NCBI GenBank assembly: GCA_937927755.1
Contig: CALBDB010000185.1
Span: 1 to 37,234, forward strand
Origin: an uncultured Lysobacterales bacterium
Lineage (GTDB): Bacteria; Pseudomonadota; Gammaproteobacteria; Xanthomonadales; SZUA-36
Direction of reading: 5' to 3'
DNA length: 37,234 nucleotides
Shown one piece after another: positions 8,590 through 16,014 of the stretch. The first letter of the stretch is position 1. The number at the start of each line of letters is the position of its first letter. The notes below the pieces were generated by a model that was not told where the DNA came from, ran no database searches, and saw only the letters and a program-made list of their open reading frames with translations. Made by a program: the position numbers and the translations under genes.

Positions 8590-8994
8590 TTACTCCTTAT
8601 CCAGCCTGATACGCACGGACTTAACCGTGCTTGATATTAGCGCCAGTGCAAACCTGGGGGTGTCCCCGCGTCGTTTTACAAGGACATCCTCGCCATCGTC
8701 TCTTTCAATGTGGAACCCATCCGGCGGCAGTTGCGCGCGGAAGGCGTCGCGGATGACCGAGGCTATCTTGTTCTCACGTGCACCTTCAACAATTCCGACC
8801 GAGACATCTGTCGAGGCCTGTCCATCGGGGGTGATGCGGAATACCAGGCTGCCGGTGGATTTTGCACCCTCGCTGACCTGGATACGCCACTTGTTGGACA
8901 GGCTGGTGTTGTTGCCGGTCACCGCGGTGCCCCCACAGGACACCAGCAAAAGCGAAAGCAGCATCACGCCCAGTGGAAACACACGCTTCATCAT
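8590..8994 (-). CDS. Small lipoprotein of unknown function
   Basis: 134 residues (ATG at 8994, or the adjacent ATG one codon later). Hydrophobic leader with lipobox LLVSC (Cys20) followed by Gly-Gly, which by the +2 rule fits outer-membrane sorting. The mature part is beta/alpha with segments such as SLVFRITPDG, a helix VIRDAFRAQLPPDGF and VKSVRIRLD; no family is recognised. It starts 21 bp after the ubiD stop on the same strand, so it is likely the last gene of the ubiU-ubiV-ubiD transcript, but it need not act in quinone synthesis. Confidence 0.7.
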   Translation of the reverse strand: MMKRVFPLGVMLLSLLLVSCGGTAVTGNNTSLSNKWRIQVSEGAKSTGSLVFRITPDGQASTDVSVGIVEGARENKIASVIRDAFRAQLPPDGFHIERDDGEDVLVKRRGDTPRFALALISSTVKSVRIRLDKE

Positions 8995-9015
8995 GGCCAG
9001 GTCCTGTCGAGGTAA

Positions 9016-10530
9016 TCAGAAACCGAGAGTTTGCGCGATCTGCTCGATTTTTTCCATGGTGTCTTTGTCCATGCCAGCGACCCTGCCCCAGTCACGGCTG
9101 GTTTCCGAGCCGATCTTGTTGGTCGCATCGATACCCATCTTGCCGCCGAGCCCAGGTTCCGGGCTGGCGAAGTCGAGGTAGTCGATGGGTGTCTTTTCGA
9201 CCAGCACGGTATCGCGCACCGGGTCGGCGCGGGTGGAGATGGCCCAGATCACCTCTTTCCAGTTGCGGGCGTCGATATCGTCATCGACAACAATGACCGT
9301 CTTGGTATAAGTGAACTGGCGCAGCCAGGACCAGATGCCAAACATGATCCGGCGCGCATGTCCGGGATAATGCTTGCGGATGCTGACGATGGCGACACGG
9401 TAAGAGCAGGCTTCCGGCGGCAGGTAGAAGTCAACGACCTCGGGGAACTGTTCCTGTAACAGCGGTATGAACATCTCGTTCAGGGCCGAGGCCATGATGG
9501 AAGGTTCATCTTCTCCGGGTTTACCCATGTAGGTTGTCAGGTAGACCGGGTTTGCGCGGTGGCTGATACGCTCAACCGTGAAAACCGGGAAATCGGCGGT
9601 GGCGTTGTAATAGCCGGTATGATCGGCAAACGGGCCTTCAGTTGCCGTCTCACCGGGATAAATATGGCCTTCCAGCACTATCTCAGCACCGTGCGGGACG
9701 GGCAGGGCGGTCAGAGAGGACTTGACGACCCTGCTCCTGCGCCCACGTAACAAACCGGCAAACTGGTATTCGGAAAGCGTGTCGGGTATTGGTGTCACGG
9801 CAGCCAGCAAGGTAGCCGGGTCGGCGCCGATAACAACGGACACGGGGAACGGTTTGCCCGAATTGGCCTGTTGGAACTCACGGAAGTCCTGCGCACCGCC
9901 ACGGTGGGGCAGCCCGCGCATGATCAGTTTGTTTTTGCCAATCACCTGCTGACGGTAGATGGCCAGGTTGACCCGTGGCTTATTGGGGCCATGGGTGATA
10001 ACCATACCCCAGGTGATCAGCCGGCCCGCATCGCCCGGCCAGCAGGTGGATATGGGCAGGTTTTCCAGGTCGACATCAGGGCCTTCAATAATATTTTCCT
10101 GCCAGGGGGCGCTATCCTTTTGCTTGGGTGTAACGTGTGCAAGCCTGGCGAAGCCCGGCACCACGTCCAGCGCCGATTTACGGTTTTCAGGCAGGTGGGG
10201 ATTTCTGAGGAAGGCAAACTCCTGCCCCAATTCTCGTAATTCCTGCCGGTTTTTCAGTTCCAGGGCGGCCAGCACCCTTTGTTCGGCGCCAAACAGGTTG
10301 CCGAGCACCGGCATGTCAAAGCCCTGCACGTTCTCGAACAAAAGGGCAGGGCCGTTGTTGAGCAGGCTGCGATTACATAAGGCGGTTATCTGCAGCCTGG
10401 GCGATACGGCCGGGTTGACCGGTTTTAGCTGGTTACTCTTGGCGAGGGCATCGGAGAACTGCCGCAGGTCTCCCCAGGCCTTCCTGTTCACCTGGCGGTG
10501 ATGATGTTCAAGCAGTTTGTCGAGTCCCAT
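9016..10530 (-). CDS. ubiD: UbiD, 3-polyprenyl-4-hydroxybenzoate decarboxylase
   Basis: 504 residues from the ATG at 10530, close to E. coli UbiD (497). An upstream in-frame ATG at 10602 would add 24 residues lying inside ubiV and is not favoured; GGGATGG precedes the chosen start. UbiD is a prenylated-FMN-dependent decarboxylase acting on prenylated 4-hydroxybenzoate in ubiquinone synthesis. Family signatures seen: ENVQGFDMPVLGNLFG near the N-terminus, the Arg-containing cofactor region NLAIYRQQVIGKNKLIMRG, and the Glu-bearing block GHIYPGETATEGPFADHTG that holds the acid/base residues. The 23-bp overlap with the ubiV end implies coupled translation. Its partner UbiX (prFMN synthase) is not in the window. 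Placing ubiD beside ubiUV fits use of the pathway under anoxia. Confidence 0.93.
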   Translation of the reverse strand: MGLDKLLEHHHRQVNRKAWGDLRQFSDALAKSNQLKPVNPAVSPRLQITALCNRSLLNNGPALLFENVQGFDMPVLGNLFGAEQRVLAALELKNRQELRELGQEFAFLRNPHLPENRKSALDVVPGFARLAHVTPKQKDSAPWQENIIEGPDVDLENLPISTCWPGDAGRLITWGMVITHGPNKPRVNLAIYRQQVIGKNKLIMRGLPHRGGAQDFREFQQANSGKPFPVSVVIGADPATLLAAVTPIPDTLSEYQFAGLLRGRRSRVVKSSLTALPVPHGAEIVLEGHIYPGETATEGPFADHTGYYNATADFPVFTVERISHRANPVYLTTYMGKPGEDEPSIMASALNEMFIPLLQEQFPEVVDFYLPPEACSYRVAIVSIRKHYPGHARRIMFGIWSWLRQFTYTKTVIVVDDDIDARNWKEVIWAISTRADPVRDTVLVEKTPIDYLDFASPEPGLGGKMGIDATNKIGSETSRDWGRVAGMDKDTMEKIEQIAQTLGF

Positions 10531-11407
10531 AATCCATCCCTGCTTTTTCGACCAGGTAGCCGTTGCATACACCGTTGGGAATAAACTCAAGTAATTCCTC
10601 ACCTAAATTATCTATAGTATTATTATTTATAGATTTATTAAAGATATTCAGTATCTCCATGGTGCCATGGTTCTGGGGACTGATACGGAGTACATCGACA
10701 CCCAGCCCCGCCAGTTCGGGCACCTGGTCCAGTACCTGGTGGGTTAGCGCCGACTGCGTCTGGATACCGTTGAGTACCAGGAATTCCTGTTTCTCCTGCG
10801 TTTCCAGCATGCGGCCGTCCGGGTAATCGATACACTTGAACTGGCAGTCATCCTTGGGCAGGTTGTGCGACCGCGCCGTGTAGCAACGCGCTGAATAGGC
10901 CAGCGGCAGTCGACCCAGTGCAAATACTTCTGTTTCCACTCCGTCGGGGCGCAACCCTTGCAGGTCTTTGAGGGTATCCAGGCCCAGTTCAACCGGCAAT
11001 ACCCAACGTTTCAGGCCCTTGCCGGCGAGTAGTTGCAGGCTGCGTCCGTTGTAAATGTTGAAACTGGGACCGGTGACGAAGCTTTTTCCGGCAGATGACA
11101 GCAATTGCACTGCGGATATGTCGTTCGCCTCGACCATGAAGGAGTCGTTGGCGCACAGTTTCTTCAGGCTGCTCATCTCGGACGCTGCTTCGAGCAGGGT
11201 CAGGGAGGACAGAATTACTTCCTTGCCGCTTTGTTTGAGTTCGTTGCCAATGGCCAGCCAGTCCTCAAATTTAACCAGGCGCCGTTTTGAGCAGATCACC
11301 TCGCCGAGGTAGATAATTTCTGCCGGGCTGTCGGCGGCCTGCTGATAAAAATCCAGCACGTGCTCGCGTTCCCAGAAGTACTGTATCGGTCCGAGGGATA
11401 GTTTCAT
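10508..11407 (-). CDS. ubiV: UbiV, iron-sulfur U32 protein of O2-independent ubiquinone synthesis
   Basis: 299 residues from the ATG at 11407, giving MKLSLGPIQYFW, matching the E. coli UbiV (YhbV) N-terminus; the adjacent ATG at 11410 is an alternative and the longer 339-codon frame reads into ubiU. The four cluster cysteines are present: Cys39 (EVICSKRR), Cys175, Cys188 and Cys192, with the C-x12-C-x3-C spacing of the E. coli protein. With UbiU it forms a heterodimer that carries out ring hydroxylation without O2. It starts 22 bp after ubiU and overlaps ubiD. The segment around 10601-10660, encoding an Asn/Ile-rich loop (FNKSINNNTIDN), is about 18% GC, unlike the rest of the gene. Confidence 0.93.
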   Translation of the reverse strand: MKLSLGPIQYFWEREHVLDFYQQAADSPAEIIYLGEVICSKRRLVKFEDWLAIGNELKQSGKEVILSSLTLLEAASEMSSLKKLCANDSFMVEANDISAVQLLSSAGKSFVTGPSFNIYNGRSLQLLAGKGLKRWVLPVELGLDTLKDLQGLRPDGVETEVFALGRLPLAYSARCYTARSHNLPKDDCQFKCIDYPDGRMLETQEKQEFLVLNGIQTQSALTHQVLDQVPELAGLGVDVLRISPQNHGTMEILNIFNKSINNNTIDNLGEELLEFIPNGVCNGYLVEKAGMDYGTRQTA

Positions 11408-11429
11408 CATAATTGCCTGTTGCCTGTGC

Positions 11430-12425
11430 CTATTGCCAGGGTCGGTGGTAGGCGCCGAGCGTGGTCTGGGAGCCCTCTGATACCGTCGCCAGTTTTCGCA
11501 TCCACTGCTCTTTTGGGCGGTAACCATGCGGGTTTTTCATACATTCATCGATTGCCGCGCGCATGACGGCGGTCACGTGGCCCACGTAAGCGGGGCTGCG
11601 CTGGCGGCCCTCAACCTTTATGGCGCTGACGCCGATTTCCCTGAGCTTTGGCAGGATCGAAAGAGTGTTCAGGCTGGTGGGTTCTTCCAGCGCATAGAAG
11701 GTATTGTCGCCTACCTGGAAACGGCCCTTGCACAATGTCGGGTAACCAGCTTTTTCACCTTCGCCATAATGGTCGATCAATACGCCGTTGAGGCGCGTAT
11801 TGGTGCCGTCCCCTGTCTCTTCCCAACGCACATGCGATGCCGGAGAGCAGGCGCCGTAGGTGTTGGGTGAGCGGCCCGTGGCATAACTGGACAACAGGCA
11901 GCGGCCTTCGACCATGACGCACAGGCTTCCAAAGCCAAAAACCTCGACCGGCACGGGAGATTCGGTGATTACGTGGGCAACCTGGTTGACCGATAGCACG
12001 CGTGGCAGGACGACACGCCGGATACCGAAGTTCTCGTGATAGAAACGAATACCTTCGGCGCTGGTCACTGAACCCTGCACCGACAGGTGAAGGTTCAATT
12101 CAGGCCAGCGCTCGGCGGCATAGTCCATGACGCCCATATCGGCAAGGATCAGGGCGTTTACGCCAAACTCCGCTGCCTGGTCCACCGCTTTCTGCCAGCG
12201 CTCGAATCCCTTCGGCTGCGGGTAGGTGTTGATTGCCACGAAGATCTTGCGGCCCTTGTCCCGTGCATAGCTGACGGCCTTTTCAAACGTGCGATCGGTA
12301 AAGTTCAGGCCGGCGAAGTGCCTTGCATTGGTATCGTCCTTGAAACCGACGTAAACAGAGTCCGCACCGTTGTCGACAGCGGCTTTTAACGAGGGCAGAT
12401 TCCCCGCGGGACACACTAATTCCAT
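11430..12425 (-). CDS. ubiU: UbiU, iron-sulfur U32 protein of O2-independent ubiquinone synthesis
   Basis: 331 residues, the same length as E. coli UbiU (YhbU). It begins MELVCPAGNLPSL and has Cys169, Cys176, Cys193 and Cys232, the positions known to hold the [4Fe-4S] cluster in the E. coli protein, within GSLCVMVEGRC, GACSP and LCKGRF. U32-family TIM-barrel fold. UbiU works with UbiV and UbiT to hydroxylate the ubiquinone ring in anoxia, probably with prephenate as oxygen donor according to published work on E. coli. First gene of the minus-strand ubiU-ubiV-ubiD run. A minus-strand -10 (TAGAAT, 12458-12463) and an FNR box at 12485-12498 lie upstream. Confidence 0.95.
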   Translation of the reverse strand: MELVCPAGNLPSLKAAVDNGADSVYVGFKDDTNARHFAGLNFTDRTFEKAVSYARDKGRKIFVAINTYPQPKGFERWQKAVDQAAEFGVNALILADMGVMDYAAERWPELNLHLSVQGSVTSAEGIRFYHENFGIRRVVLPRVLSVNQVAHVITESPVPVEVFGFGSLCVMVEGRCLLSSYATGRSPNTYGACSPASHVRWEETGDGTNTRLNGVLIDHYGEGEKAGYPTLCKGRFQVGDNTFYALEEPTSLNTLSILPKLREIGVSAIKVEGRQRSPAYVGHVTAVMRAAIDECMKNPHGYRPKEQWMRKLATVSEGSQTTLGAYHRPWQ

Positions 12426-12457
12426 GGCTGATCCAGATTACGGGCTAGTGGCAGGAT

Positions 12458-12463
12458 ATTCTA
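12458..12463 (-). promoter_or_regulatory. Predicted -10 element of the ubiU promoter
   Basis: Read on the minus strand the hexamer is TAGAAT (5 of 6 to TATAAT). A transcription start about 7 nt downstream, near 12451, puts the FNR box centre (12491.5) at about -40.5, the usual class II activator position. No good -35 hexamer is needed in that arrangement. Confidence 0.5.
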
Positions 12464-12484
12464 TGCGCAGTATCTTTCGTCACA

Positions 12485-12498
12485 TTGATCTGAATCAA
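12485..12498. promoter_or_regulatory. FNR-type binding box between ubiU and ubiT
   Basis: TTGATCTGAATCAA is a perfect match to the FNR/ANR consensus TTGAT-N4-ATCAA. It lies in the 127-bp divergent gap between ubiU and ubiT, at about -40.5 from a predicted start site on each strand. FNR is the iron-sulfur sensor that activates genes in the absence of oxygen, and E. coli ubiUV is reported to be FNR-activated. The regulator gene itself is not in the window. Confidence 0.85.
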
Positions 12499-12519
12499 CA
12501 CATCGTTGAAATCGGCAAA

Positions 12520-12525
12520 TATACT
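12520..12525 (+). promoter_or_regulatory. Predicted -10 element of the ubiT promoter
   Basis: TATACT (5 of 6 to TATAAT). A start near 12532 places the FNR box centre at about -40.5 and gives a 5' leader of about 20 nt to the ATG at 12553. This also argues against the earlier in-frame ATGs at 12370, 12424 and 12463 as ubiT starts. Confidence 0.55.
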
Positions 12526-12552
12526 GAGCGCTCACCTACATTGAGAGCGCCG

Positions 12553-13056
12553 ATGCTGCCCATTACAGATTACGTCCGGCCAATAGCAAAAAAGGTTATT
12601 GGCATACCGGGGCGTTTCATACCCTACTCGGCCCAGAAGCCGCTATTAGCCGTTGTCCTGAACCAGGCGTTTCGCGAACCACTACAGCATGGTGAACTCG
12701 ATTTTCTTGAAGGAGCGAAAGTCAGGATAAAGGTCACCGACCTGTGCATAGACTGGTTGATCAGTGTCGGCAGCGATAAATTCGTCCCGGTGGACCGTGA
12801 ACTGAAGGACGACGTATGCATCAGTGGCGAAAGCCCGGATTTCATATTACTGGCCACACGCCAGGCCGATCCCGACACGTTGTTCTTTCAGCGCAGGATC
12901 CGAATAGAAGGGGATACGGAGCTGGGATTGGGTGTTAAAAACACGATGGACAGCATGGACTGGGACGATTTGCCGCTGCCACTACGCAGACTCCTGCAGG
13001 GTATAGGTCAGCTGATCGAATTATTGCCGAAAAAAGAGCAGCAGGAATCGTTGTAA
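12553..13056 (+). CDS. ubiT: UbiT, SCP2-domain accessory factor for anaerobic ubiquinone synthesis
   Basis: 167 residues from the ATG at 12553 (GAGAG 5 nt upstream; E. coli UbiT is 174). Upstream in-frame ATGs would place the start before the predicted promoter or inside ubiU. The SCP2 lipid-binding domain spans most of the protein. Clear UbiT signatures are GELDFLEG (48-54 region), DLCIDW and the block 106-126 starting DPDTLFFQRR and continuing to EGDTELGL, nearly the same in E. coli. Hydrophobic face LLQGIGQLIELL at the C-terminus. The protein binds the isoprenoid tail of quinone intermediates and is required for the O2-independent route. Divergent from ubiU, sharing the FNR box; convergent with the RquA-like gene 52 bp away. 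Confidence 0.92.
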   Translation: MLPITDYVRPIAKKVIGIPGRFIPYSAQKPLLAVVLNQAFREPLQHGELDFLEGAKVRIKVTDLCIDWLISVGSDKFVPVDRELKDDVCISGESPDFILLATRQADPDTLFFQRRIRIEGDTELGLGVKNTMDSMDWDDLPLPLRRLLQGIGQLIELLPKKEQQESL

Positions 13057-13108
13057 GAGTTCCCCGGTTACGGGCGCCTGGTGGCAGCCCGGACACAGCC
13101 GTTGTGGG

Positions 13109-13915
13109 TTATGTTAGCCGTTTCGCCGCTAAGACCTGGAAGTTATCAAAAAGAAATGTATCCTTTTCTACCCGGTAAGAACCGGCCGCCTCATCTTCAA
13201 GGACTTTCGTGATGTCGAACTCATCCCACATTTCAGTCGCATAGGGCTCAAAAATTTTAAAATAAATACGCCCGAGAACCTCTAAAACCTTAAGTCTTGG
13301 TTTGTGGAATTCACCAAAAACCACTTTACCGCCAGGCTTTAATACCCTGTGGGCTTCTTTGACGTGCTGTACTTTCTTGTCAAAAGGCAGTTCATGCGGG
13401 AGGAAAAACGCAACCACGTAGTCAAACGACTGATCTTCAAACTCCAGGTTCGTGGCGTCCTGTTTGCTGTAAGTACACAGATCTCCAAAACGCTTCAGCT
13501 TTCTTTGTGCATTGTCCAATTCGCTCTGCATGATATCGGTCAGCACAAACTCTGCGGCGTCCTGTCTTGCACAGCTTTCGGCAATTTTTTCAGACACATT
13601 TCCGAAAGCACAGGAAACCTGCAAAATCCTTTTGCCTTCAAGAGAAGGATTTAAGCGTTTTACAACAAGGCTCACCAGCTTGCTGTACTGAAGCAACAGT
13701 ATGCTCGATACAACAAACATCCGGTCCGCCAGCTTGATAAAAAACGGACTTTTATAGATCCAGTAAATATGTGCCGTATCGGGATCGGAATTGGCATCAT
13801 TGGCCTGGTAGATCAGGGATAGCCTGGTTACGACAAGAAAAAACAAACCGATCAAAGCCAGGGCGACGATTGCGATTGTGATCAATAGTGTCAGATTTTC
13901 AGGTATTGCTGTCAT
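13109..13915 (-). CDS. RquA-like rhodoquinone biosynthesis protein (SAM-methyltransferase fold)
   Basis: 268 residues. N-terminal membrane segment (about residues 7-29), then HIYWIYKSPFFIKLADRM (49-66) and a second hydrophobic patch, followed by a class I SAM-methyltransferase fold: motif I ILQVSCAFGN (97-106), AFFLPHELP (169-177), LKPGGKVVFGEFH (192-204) and FEPYATEMW (222-230). The YW-x-Y segment, a motif I lacking the usual GxGxG, FF-L-x-HE-x-P and EP-A-x-x-W resemble what I remember of RquA, which uses SAM to swap a ubiquinone methoxy group for an amino group, giving rhodoquinone for fumarate respiration. Convergent with ubiT. It may instead be a related methyltransferase of unknown substrate; RquA identity is inferred from recall, not alignment. 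Confidence 0.6.
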   Translation of the reverse strand: MTAIPENLTLLITIAIVALALIGLFFLVVTRLSLIYQANDANSDPDTAHIYWIYKSPFFIKLADRMFVVSSILLLQYSKLVSLVVKRLNPSLEGKRILQVSCAFGNVSEKIAESCARQDAAEFVLTDIMQSELDNAQRKLKRFGDLCTYSKQDATNLEFEDQSFDYVVAFFLPHELPFDKKVQHVKEAHRVLKPGGKVVFGEFHKPRLKVLEVLGRIYFKIFEPYATEMWDEFDITKVLEDEAAGSYRVEKDTFLFDNFQVLAAKRLT

Positions 13916-14236
13916 GTCGTTTCACTTCAGATGTCAGGTGAATTTATCCTTTTGGATGGCTCCTTTTGCCAACCAAAAAATGCGCCAAATTTATGTGATG
14001 ATTTATTAATATCTGTGCCAGCGATGGCAAATTTACACATCCATTTTCCGAGTTGAAAAGGAGTAAATATCTATGTGTTTTGAGGAATGAATTTTACGTG
14101 CTTTGGGGTGCTTGTGGTAACAAAACTTAGGTCCGAGTTGACTTAAGTCAAGCGGTGGTGCCCTGTAGGAGCGATCGGCGCAGCTGGTCGCGATTTACCT
14201 ACAAAAAATCATCGCGACCGAATTCATCGATCGCTC
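13916..14236. other. Intergenic region upstream of the RquA-like gene
   Basis: About 320 bp without a credible gene. AT-rich on the RquA side (13940-14100), where a promoter for the minus-strand gene is expected, although no unambiguous -35/-10 pair is seen. It contains a perfect 14-bp palindrome at 14138-14151 and most of an inverted REP pair at 14162-14243. Confidence 0.5.
14138..14151. promoter_or_regulatory. Perfect palindrome resembling a CRP/FNR-family operator
   Basis: TTGACTTAAGTCAA has the TTGA-N6-TCAA form of CRP/FNR-family sites, with TTGAC/GTCAA arms rather than the TTGAT/ATCAA arms of the ubi box. It lies 223 bp before the RquA-like ATG. I see no good -10 hexamer at the matching distance, so its use for that gene is tentative. 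Confidence 0.35.
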
Positions 14237-14243
14237 CTACAGG
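14162..14243. repeat. Inverted pair of REP-like elements (BIME-like)
   Basis: The outer 16 bp, CCTGTAGGAGCGATCG (14162-14177) and its exact complement (14228-14243), flank an inner perfect 9-bp pair GGTCGCGAT/ATCGCGACC (14186-14194 and 14211-14219). The whole folds into one long hairpin. It is the same family as the elements at 8463-8577. The right arm overlaps the 3' end of the ribokinase-like gene and supplies its TAG stop. Confidence 0.8.
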
Positions 14244-15079
14244 TTCTTGATCTGAGCCAGTGTCGGGGAGGACTGGGCACCCATTTTTGTAGTGGCCAGG
14301 GCACCTACTACGCAGGCCTCCTCCAGTGCTATCTGTGGATCTTTTCCGCTGACCAGCGCAACGGTCAGTGCTGCGGTGAAGGCATCGCCGGCGCCAGTGG
14401 TATCTACGACCTCCACCTTGGGTGGCCTGGCCTTTGCCACCTGTCTGCCATGCCGGCGGAGCACGGCGCCTTCAGCACCATAAGTGGTGGCCAGCAGGCC
14501 TTTATAATTATCCAGTTCAGTACCCAGCGTACGGGCTTCGATCTCGTTGACAACCAGCAAGTTCACGTGCTCCAGTATTTCGTGTGGCACCGGCTTGGCA
14601 GGGGCGGCGTTAAGGCAGAAGAAATTGTTAGCTTCGCCGGCCGCCTTGAGAATGGTTTCAAACGGTACTTCAAGCTGGGCAATGCTCGCGTCGGTGGCGG
14701 GAATTTCAAGGTGTTCAGCATCAAATGCAGCGTTGGCGCCTGGTGCCACGACAATCTGGTTTTCACCCGCCTCATTGACAACGATCATGGCCAGGCCGGT
14801 AGCATACCCCTCAAGCGGCTTGCAAAAGCCAAGGTCGATGCCTTCTTTGCGCAAGGTATGTAGCGCTTCCTCTGCCATTGGGTCATTTCCGACCCGTCCC
14901 ACCATGTATACAGCGGCACCCAGGCGGTGGGCAGCAATAGCCTGGTTGGCGCCTTTTCCACCCGGGAAGCGCCTGACCACGGCGTTGGTGACGGTTTCGC
15001 CGGGTAGCGGAAACTCCCGTACGGTGGCAACGATATCCAGGTTTATGGATCCGATGATGGCGACCGATATATTCTTCAT
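14237..15079 (-). CDS. Ribokinase-like PfkB-family sugar kinase
   Basis: 280 residues from the ATG at 15079, which overlaps the upstream hydrolase stop as ATGA; the longer 331-codon frame runs backward into that gene and is not used. PfkB signatures: N-terminal GSINLD (10-15), GGKGANQ (40-46) and DTTGAGDAF (226-234) with catalytic Asp232 and the anion hole. It is somewhat short for ribokinase (E. coli 309). Ribokinase phosphorylates ribose at O5 using ATP; the neighbouring nucleoside hydrolase would release ribose, supporting that substrate. The last codons and the TAG stop fall inside a REP element, so the original C-terminus may have been replaced. Confidence 0.85.
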   Translation of the reverse strand: MKNISVAIIGSINLDIVATVREFPLPGETVTNAVVRRFPGGKGANQAIAAHRLGAAVYMVGRVGNDPMAEEALHTLRKEGIDLGFCKPLEGYATGLAMIVVNEAGENQIVVAPGANAAFDAEHLEIPATDASIAQLEVPFETILKAAGEANNFFCLNAAPAKPVPHEILEHVNLLVVNEIEARTLGTELDNYKGLLATTYGAEGAVLRRHGRQVAKARPPKVEVVDTTGAGDAFTAALTVALVSGKDPQIALEEACVVGALATTKMGAQSSPTLAQIKNL

Positions 15080-16014
15080 CCTTTTAACCGTTCTATCAGC
15101 AACTTGAAAAAGCCGTTCGCGTCGACCCGGTATAACCAATTGGTATTTTTGGGCCGCCCGGTGACGCCCCAGAAATCGACTGCGGTATGTCCGCCGGTCA
15201 ACGGGGAATCCGTTTCCACTTCCACATTGCACATTTTACCCTCAAACAGTTCCGGTTTGAGCAGGTAGGCAATGGTGCAGGGGTCATGCAGCGGCGCACC
15301 ATCGCTGCCGTATTTTTCGCTGTCAAAGCGGTTGAAGAACTCCATCATTCCGACCACGGCGGTACCGATGGGTGAATCTATTTGGCGAATCTGCTCAAGC
15401 CGCTCGCGTGTGACCATGGCCTGGTGGGTCATGTCCAGCGGTGCAATGGTGACCGGTCGTCCACAGCGCAAAACGATATGTGCCGCTTCGGGATCAACCA
15501 GGATATTAAACTCGGCGCTGGGTGATGTGTTGCCGCCCTCCCGCATGGCGCCGCCCATCATCACGATTTCCTTGATTTTTGGCAGAATTTCCGGTTGTCC
15601 GGATATCGCCTGGCCGATATTGGTCAGTGGCCCCGTCGGAACCAATGTAATGGAATCATCCTCCGCGGCGAGCAGGGTTTCGATAATAAAATCCACCGCG
15701 TGTTGGCCTTGCAGTGGCATGTCGGGTTGATAGATATCAACACCGTCGATTCCAGTCTTGCCATGCACGTTTTCCGCGGTCACCAGTTCGCGGTTCATGG
15801 GTCTGTCACAACCGGCGAATACCGGCACATCGGTATTGCCTGACAGTTCACACATGATCCTCGCATTCCGCTGTGTCAGGTCCAGCGGCACGTTGCCGGC
15901 CACGGTGGTGATACCCAGGATATCCAGTTCATCAGGGCAGGCCAGCGCCAGCAGCAGCATGACGGCATCATCCTGGCCGGGGTCGCAATCGATGATGATT
16001 TTTCTTTTTGTCAT
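15076..16014 (-). CDS. Inosine/uridine-preferring nucleoside hydrolase
   Basis: 312 residues, usual for the family. Begins MTKRKIIIDCDPGQDDAVM: the DxDxxxDD motif (Asp9, Asp11, Asp15, Asp16) binds calcium and supplies the general base. Also seen: VPTGPLTNIG, MGGAMREGGNTSPSAEFN and the C-terminal HDPCTIAYL with the His/Asp of the active site. The enzyme splits ribonucleosides into base and ribose in the cytoplasm. The four-base overlap with the ribokinase-like gene implies a two-gene salvage operon. Substrate preference (pyrimidine, purine or mixed, as in RihA/B/C) cannot be assigned. Confidence 0.92.
   Translation of the reverse strand: MTKRKIIIDCDPGQDDAVMLLLALACPDELDILGITTVAGNVPLDLTQRNARIMCELSGNTDVPVFAGCDRPMNRELVTAENVHGKTGIDGVDIYQPDMPLQGQHAVDFIIETLLAAEDDSITLVPTGPLTNIGQAISGQPEILPKIKEIVMMGGAMREGGNTSPSAEFNILVDPEAAHIVLRCGRPVTIAPLDMTHQAMVTRERLEQIRQIDSPIGTAVVGMMEFFNRFDSEKYGSDGAPLHDPCTIAYLLKPELFEGKMCNVEVETDSPLTGGHTAVDFWGVTGRPKNTNWLYRVDANGFFKLLIERLKG

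Follow-up and report, generated by a model that had tools for sequence, protein, structure and literature searches.

Known systems and the present locus

The closest described system is that of Escherichia coli, in which, according to the parts of PMC10470549 that cover the region, ubiUV and ubiT are divergent and both are activated by FNR. The same parts report two boxes in that region, F1 and F2, where mutation of one box has no effect on the other gene, and an additional FNR-independent promoter for ubiT, ubiTp1 (PMC10470549). In Pseudomonadota, main-text parts of PMC11707229 describe an architecture 3 of ubiTUV, with divergent ubiT and ubiUV and a predicted FNR site between them in 96% of cases. 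With respect to position, the FNR site lies at −41.5 ± 4 in 19 of the 23 E. coli FNR-activated promoters with a known start. El-Robh and Busby reportedly described, in 2002, pairs of divergent promoters that share one CRP site. The relevant parts of PMC3105977 list 11 E. coli cases of this kind. In the literature covered, which included few subscription papers, we recognised no report of an FNR site shared by ubiU and ubiT.

The locus discussed here lies in a window of 37,234 nucleotides, by which we mean the whole stretch of DNA that was analysed, and comprises two adjacent gene sets for oxygen-independent ubiquinone synthesis. As in the E. coli region described in parts of PMC10470549, the genes are divergent, and they are orthologous to those of E. 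coli; FNR activation has been shown there and is predicted here. The difference is that one box would serve both sides here, whereas there are two in E. coli, and a single box matching at least 9/10 bases was found in each of 13 related gaps rather than a pair of sites. Architecture 3 is alike in its divergent genes and FNR site, while a shared site and symmetric −10 spacing are not described in those main-text parts of PMC11707229. The likeness to the single-site CRP pairs, as presented in parts of PMC3105977, is that one dimer of the Crp/FNR superfamily lies between two divergent promoters, with control being predicted in our case, and here too one site is at activating distance from both predicted starts. 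The signal differs, being CRP with cAMP there and FNR with oxygen here, and the symmetric spacing conserved across a family that we see here was not encountered for the single-site CRP pairs in those parts of PMC3105977.

Genes and promoter elements

The features of the locus are as follows.

9016–10530, minus strand: gene for a UbiD-family decarboxylase (TIGR00148, 503.5 bits, cut-off 244.85), overlapping the end of ubiV
10508–11416, minus strand: ubiV (NF047965, 380.6 bits, cut-off 275), beginning 13 bp past ubiU
11430–12425, minus strand: ubiU (NF047963, 558 bits, cut-off 440), with its ATG at 12425
12426–12552: intergenic gap of 127 bp between ubiU (minus) and ubiT (plus)
12458–12463, minus strand: predicted −10 element of the ubiU promoter, TAGAAT (ATTCTA on the top strand), 21 bp away from the box, with its start predicted at 12451
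12485–12498: FNR box TTGATCTGAATCAA, a perfect match to the 10 specified bases of TTGAYN4RTCAA
12520–12525, plus strand: predicted −10 element of the ubiT promoter, TATACT, 21 bp away from the box, with its start predicted at 12532
12553–13056, plus strand: ubiT (NF047962, 141.2 bits, cut-off 46.9), with a conserved Met at 12553

Given the 13 bp between ubiU and ubiV and the overlap between ubiV and ubiD, the three minus-strand genes likely form one operon, ubiUVD. The model scan for the UbiD-family decarboxylase ran from 10602, and the narrower PRK10922 model gave 660 bits, under its cut-off of 788. A longer ubiT frame, starting at 12370 or 12463 and thus placing the box inside the gene, was judged unlikely on the basis of upstream stops in relatives: in 8 of 13 family genomes, the frame meets a stop no more than 14 codons before the conserved Met, the stop is farther away in L062 (35 codons) and L070 (41 codons), and the gap is without such a stop in the remaining three (the window, L068, and L071). 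In L065 (the same locus as L007), the ubiT ATG is only 8 nt past TATACT, and the transcript may be leaderless.

The original prediction of a perfect FNR consensus at 12485–12498 was correct to the base, and both −10 elements that it named were recovered, each separated from the box by 21 bp (spacers 12464–12484 and 12499–12519). Transcription starts were placed 7 nt past each −10 element, and on this −10-based prediction the box centre, 12491.5, lies at −40.5 relative to both, exactly as had been proposed; the two predicted starts are 81 bp apart. Together with a box at 14138–14151, TTGATCTGAATCAA is the sole box of at least 9/10 within 8900–14300. A consensus-type scan of 12380–12620 returned no sigma-70 match having a −35 element, although a non-consensus, FNR-independent ubiT promoter comparable to ubiTp1 may still be present. 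At the usual spacings of 15–18 bp, the best −35 candidates match 3/6 bases on the ubiU side and 3/6 on the ubiT side; at 19 bp, which is outside the usual spacing, ubiT has 4/6 (TCAACA) and ubiU 2/6. Both sides thus have a −10 element with a weak or absent −35, and with a site at −40.5 from both predicted starts, what a class II activator needs is present in the sequence on either side.

Conservation across the family

A UbiU scan of genome contigs gave 37 loci, of which the ten closest retain the layout of the gap. Among the 39 genomes of the window's family, ubiU was detected in 14, which is a lower bound as many of the genomes are incomplete. In 13 of these 14, spanning six genera as labelled, ubiT is adjacent and divergent, and in the fourteenth (G147), ubiU, ubiV, and ubiT are all on one strand. 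The original prediction had proposed comparing this gap across related genomes, and the symmetric layout, with one box and 21/14/21 spacing, recurs in all 13 genomes with divergent ubiU and ubiT, across gap lengths of 105 to 163 bp. Ten loci (L001–L010) were omitted from this count, being the same loci, with identical gap sequences, as L060–L068 and L070.

The box matches TTGAYN4RTCAA at 10/10 bases in 12 of the 13 gaps and at 9/10 in one (L068), and the second-best box is at most 8/10, a value reached in L068. Toward ubiU, the −10 is TAGAAT in 11 and TAAAAT in two, scoring 5/6 in every case. Toward ubiT, it is TATACT in 11, TACACT in one, and TAGACT in one, scoring 5/6 in 11 and 4/6 in two (L067 and L071). 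Mean pairwise identity is 0.95 in the −10 elements vs. 0.49 in the spacers. In mean information content, the −10 elements reach 1.90 and 1.87 bits and the box arms 1.77, with 0.75 and 0.85 bits in the spacers and 0.54 outside, and the two −10 elements are the best-scoring 6-bp stretches outside the box.

Chance and symmetry

The arrangement is more than a product of chance. Perfect FNR boxes number two in the window and 17 in the whole 3.44-Mb genome, compared with none for the same pattern read backwards. Among the 17, the ubi box alone is flanked on both sides, at 19–24 bp, by −10 elements of at least 5/6. In mononucleotide shuffles of the gap, TTGAYN4RTCAA arose in 163 of 300,000, and from base composition, the probability that −10 elements matching 5/6 or better stand exactly 21 bp away on each side is ~3.6 × 10^−5. 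The second perfect box of the window (15727–15740) was set aside as a chance occurrence, as it lies inside a nucleoside hydrolase gene with flanking −10 matches of at most 2/6.

A palindromic box might nevertheless yield two −10 elements by accident of symmetry, and this was the rationale for a comparison with 37 other ubiU loci that have a 10/10 box upstream and for which no divergent ubiT turned up within 600 bp. Duplicates in the comparison group were removed on the basis of the last 120 bp; 136 of 175 loci were excluded for want of a 10/10 box, L068 (9/10) was admitted to the family group, and two ubiU matches were left out (a second copy in G417, and G330). "Not divergent" here means that ubiT was undetected in the available stretch or was more than 600 bp away, and for 122 of 206 loci ubiT was not found in the stretches examined. 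Toward ubiU, the −10 score of the 37 peaks at 22 bp (mean 2.95, with 16 of 37 at 4/6 or better), and 21 bp is the spacing at which −10 elements of 5/6 are most frequent (5 of 37). The scores on the opposite, far side are at background, with means of 1.4–1.7 at 20–23 bp and no −10 of 5/6 in any of the 37 at 20, 21, 22, or 23 bp, whereas the far side of the 13 family loci has a mean of 4.85 at 21 bp. Because of this contrast, we conclude from the sequences compared that the second −10 accompanies divergent ubiT.

Outside the family, 11 loci have divergent ubiU–ubiT pairs with aligned starts less than 600 bp apart. Six of these are Vibrio loci with several candidate boxes of 8–9/10 each, including one ~65 bp from ubiU with a 4/6 −10 at 22 bp toward ubiU, and one at ~124 bp with a 5/6 −10 at 22 bp toward ubiT. 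Two boxes of 9/10 were found in each of L126 and L129, L148 and L174 have a single 10/10 box each, and the divergent gap of L176 has no box of 8/10 or better. With its 4/6 −10 elements on both sides at 22 bp, L148 could be a second one-box case. In view of these loci, we do not claim the design as exclusive to the family.

The regulator

An FNR is encoded in the genome beside a frame that looks like hemN (judged by eye), and it passes the NF008365 model with 230.9 bits (cut-off 228). Among the 39 family genomes, 32 have an FNR match (E ≤ 1e−40), namely all 14 with ubiU vs. 18 of the 25 others. In each of the 14 ubiU genomes, it carries cysteines 19, 22, 28, and 121, which we take to be the counterparts of the E. 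coli cluster ligands, and the E..SR motif.

The box could instead be read mainly by another Crp/FNR regulator, in which case the signal may not be oxygen. Related Crp/FNR regulators share the FNR half-site, and two more such proteins in the genome, L039 and L040, bear E..SR in the recognition helix. However, L039 reaches only 64.5 bits against the FNR model cut-off of 228, and L040 has no match among the FNR matches listed, while the four-cysteine FNR is present in every ubiU genome and the E. coli counterparts of the genes at this box are activated by FNR itself. We therefore regard another reader of the box as unlikely.

Proposed mechanism

We consider it highly probable, judging from sequence features, that one FNR dimer acts as an oxygen-responsive class II activator of both ubiUVD and ubiT. 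At low oxygen, a single dimer would bind 12485–12498, and each of its faces would act in class II fashion to recruit sigma-70 RNA polymerase, giving leftward transcription from about 12451 into ubiUVD and rightward transcription from about 12532 into ubiT. The gap would then be a dyad-symmetric, FNR-dependent bidirectional promoter, with −10 elements that lack a good −35. The original suggestion that a single dimer could activate both transcripts is supported by all 13 gaps, each of which has a −10 element exactly 21 bp away on either side of the box.

Certain details count against this reading. The implied −40.5 is one base short of the canonical centre of −41.5, and the mean score is higher at 22 bp in other loci; spacings of 21 and 22 bp both fit within the class II range. 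In addition, the ubiT −10 is only 4/6 in L067 and L071, and L068 combines a 9/10 box with an 8/10 second site. FNR might also activate ubiUVD alone, with ubiT transcribed from an unrelated promoter and TATACT being incidental, as might be thought from the FNR-independent ubiTp1 of E. coli. But the conservation of TATACT at its exact 21-bp distance is close to that of the ubiU −10, and the gap yielded no further sigma-70 match, which makes this very improbable. Least probable of all, in our estimation, is activation of one promoter by the dimer combined with repression of the second: a site at −40.5 covers part of the −35 region and could stand in the way of an FNR-independent polymerase, yet box position and −10 spacing are identical on the two sides, the −35 matches at 15–18 bp are at most 3/6 on either side, and ubiUV and ubiT are both activated in E. 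coli.

In speaking of both transcripts, the original prediction left a steric conflict between the two polymerases unaddressed. Under activation of both promoters by one dimer, the polymerases probably use it by turns and not together: with starts 81 bp apart, either class II polymerase would require this dimer as well as the DNA past it, so that each polymerase with its activator would extend across the box into the opposite promoter. It is possible, if rather doubtful, that the symmetric site is an either/or splitter, in which the dimer holds one polymerase at a time and the equally sub-consensus, conserved −10 elements fix the ratio of UbiU/V/D to UbiT transcripts. If true, the stoichiometry of the pathway would be encoded in a 68-bp near-symmetric promoter.

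UbiD and oxygen

The UbiD of the window is the sole UbiD domain found in its genome, which is 97% complete and also encodes two oxygen-dependent Ubi hydroxylases. UbiD domains of at least 255 bits are present in all 14 ubiU genomes and in none of the 25 other family genomes, so this UbiD, in the family genomes surveyed, travels with the oxygen-independent route. Among the 25 genomes without ubiU, 21 have Ubi hydroxylase matches above cut-off and five have lower-scoring UbiD domains above cut-off. Family genomes without this UbiD may decarboxylate differently, possibly with an unknown aerobic decarboxylase. We considered whether Coq4 might be the aerobic counterpart to a UbiD that works only anaerobically, and this was unsupported (Coq4 found in 1 of 39 family genomes). 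The oxygen coupling of UbiD that had been proposed fits the operon layout and is plausible. Since no other UbiD was found in the genome, UbiD would be low in air if the shared promoter is its only one.

Neighboring rquA and other nearby features

An RquA-like methyltransferase gene (13109–13915, minus strand) is convergent with ubiT and scores 148.7 bits against the RquA cut-off of 175. The box at 14138–14151, TTGACTTAAGTCAA, is 236 bp upstream of where this gene is annotated to start, and boxes of 9–10/10 also occur upstream of its counterpart in L001–L004. The spacing from this box to a TAAAAT varies, being 41 in the window and L003, 43 in L002, 63 in L004, and 82 in L001. The window's own genome has a separate RquA match of 292 bits (L283, G000:C182:14703-15362), and RquA was found above cut-off in 21 of 39 family genomes. 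This contrasts with the dataset of PMC11707229, in which, in the parts that treat it, only one gammaproteobacterium has the rhodoquinone pathway. Five family genomes have an rquA above cut-off next to one arm of the proposed shared promoter (L005, L006, L286, L290, L300, L302, and L303), after ubiT in G063, G070, and G027 and after ubiD in G171 and G042; a 9/10 FNR-like box lies between ubiT and rquA in G063 and G027.

At the end of the ribokinase gene, an inverted GTAGGAGCGATC...GATCGCTCCTAC at ~14162–14240 resembles a REP-type element by eye. L056 and L058 have perfect FNR boxes beside frames that, by eye and from a known motif, resemble hydrogenase maturation proteases.

Implications

The locus appears to work like a single-site CRP divergent promoter, with sequence that has the testable features of FNR class II activation at predicted starts. 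FNR control and single-site CRP promoters were already known; the present case would combine them, with FNR acting from one site and exact symmetry kept across the family. The gap offers a compact system for asking if one activator feeds two polymerases at once. For the organism, ubiU, ubiV, ubiT, and a ubiD would be tied to one DNA site where E. coli uses two, and for the family, this seems to be a natural and conserved case in which one oxygen-sensor dimer serves two equidistant divergent class II promoters.
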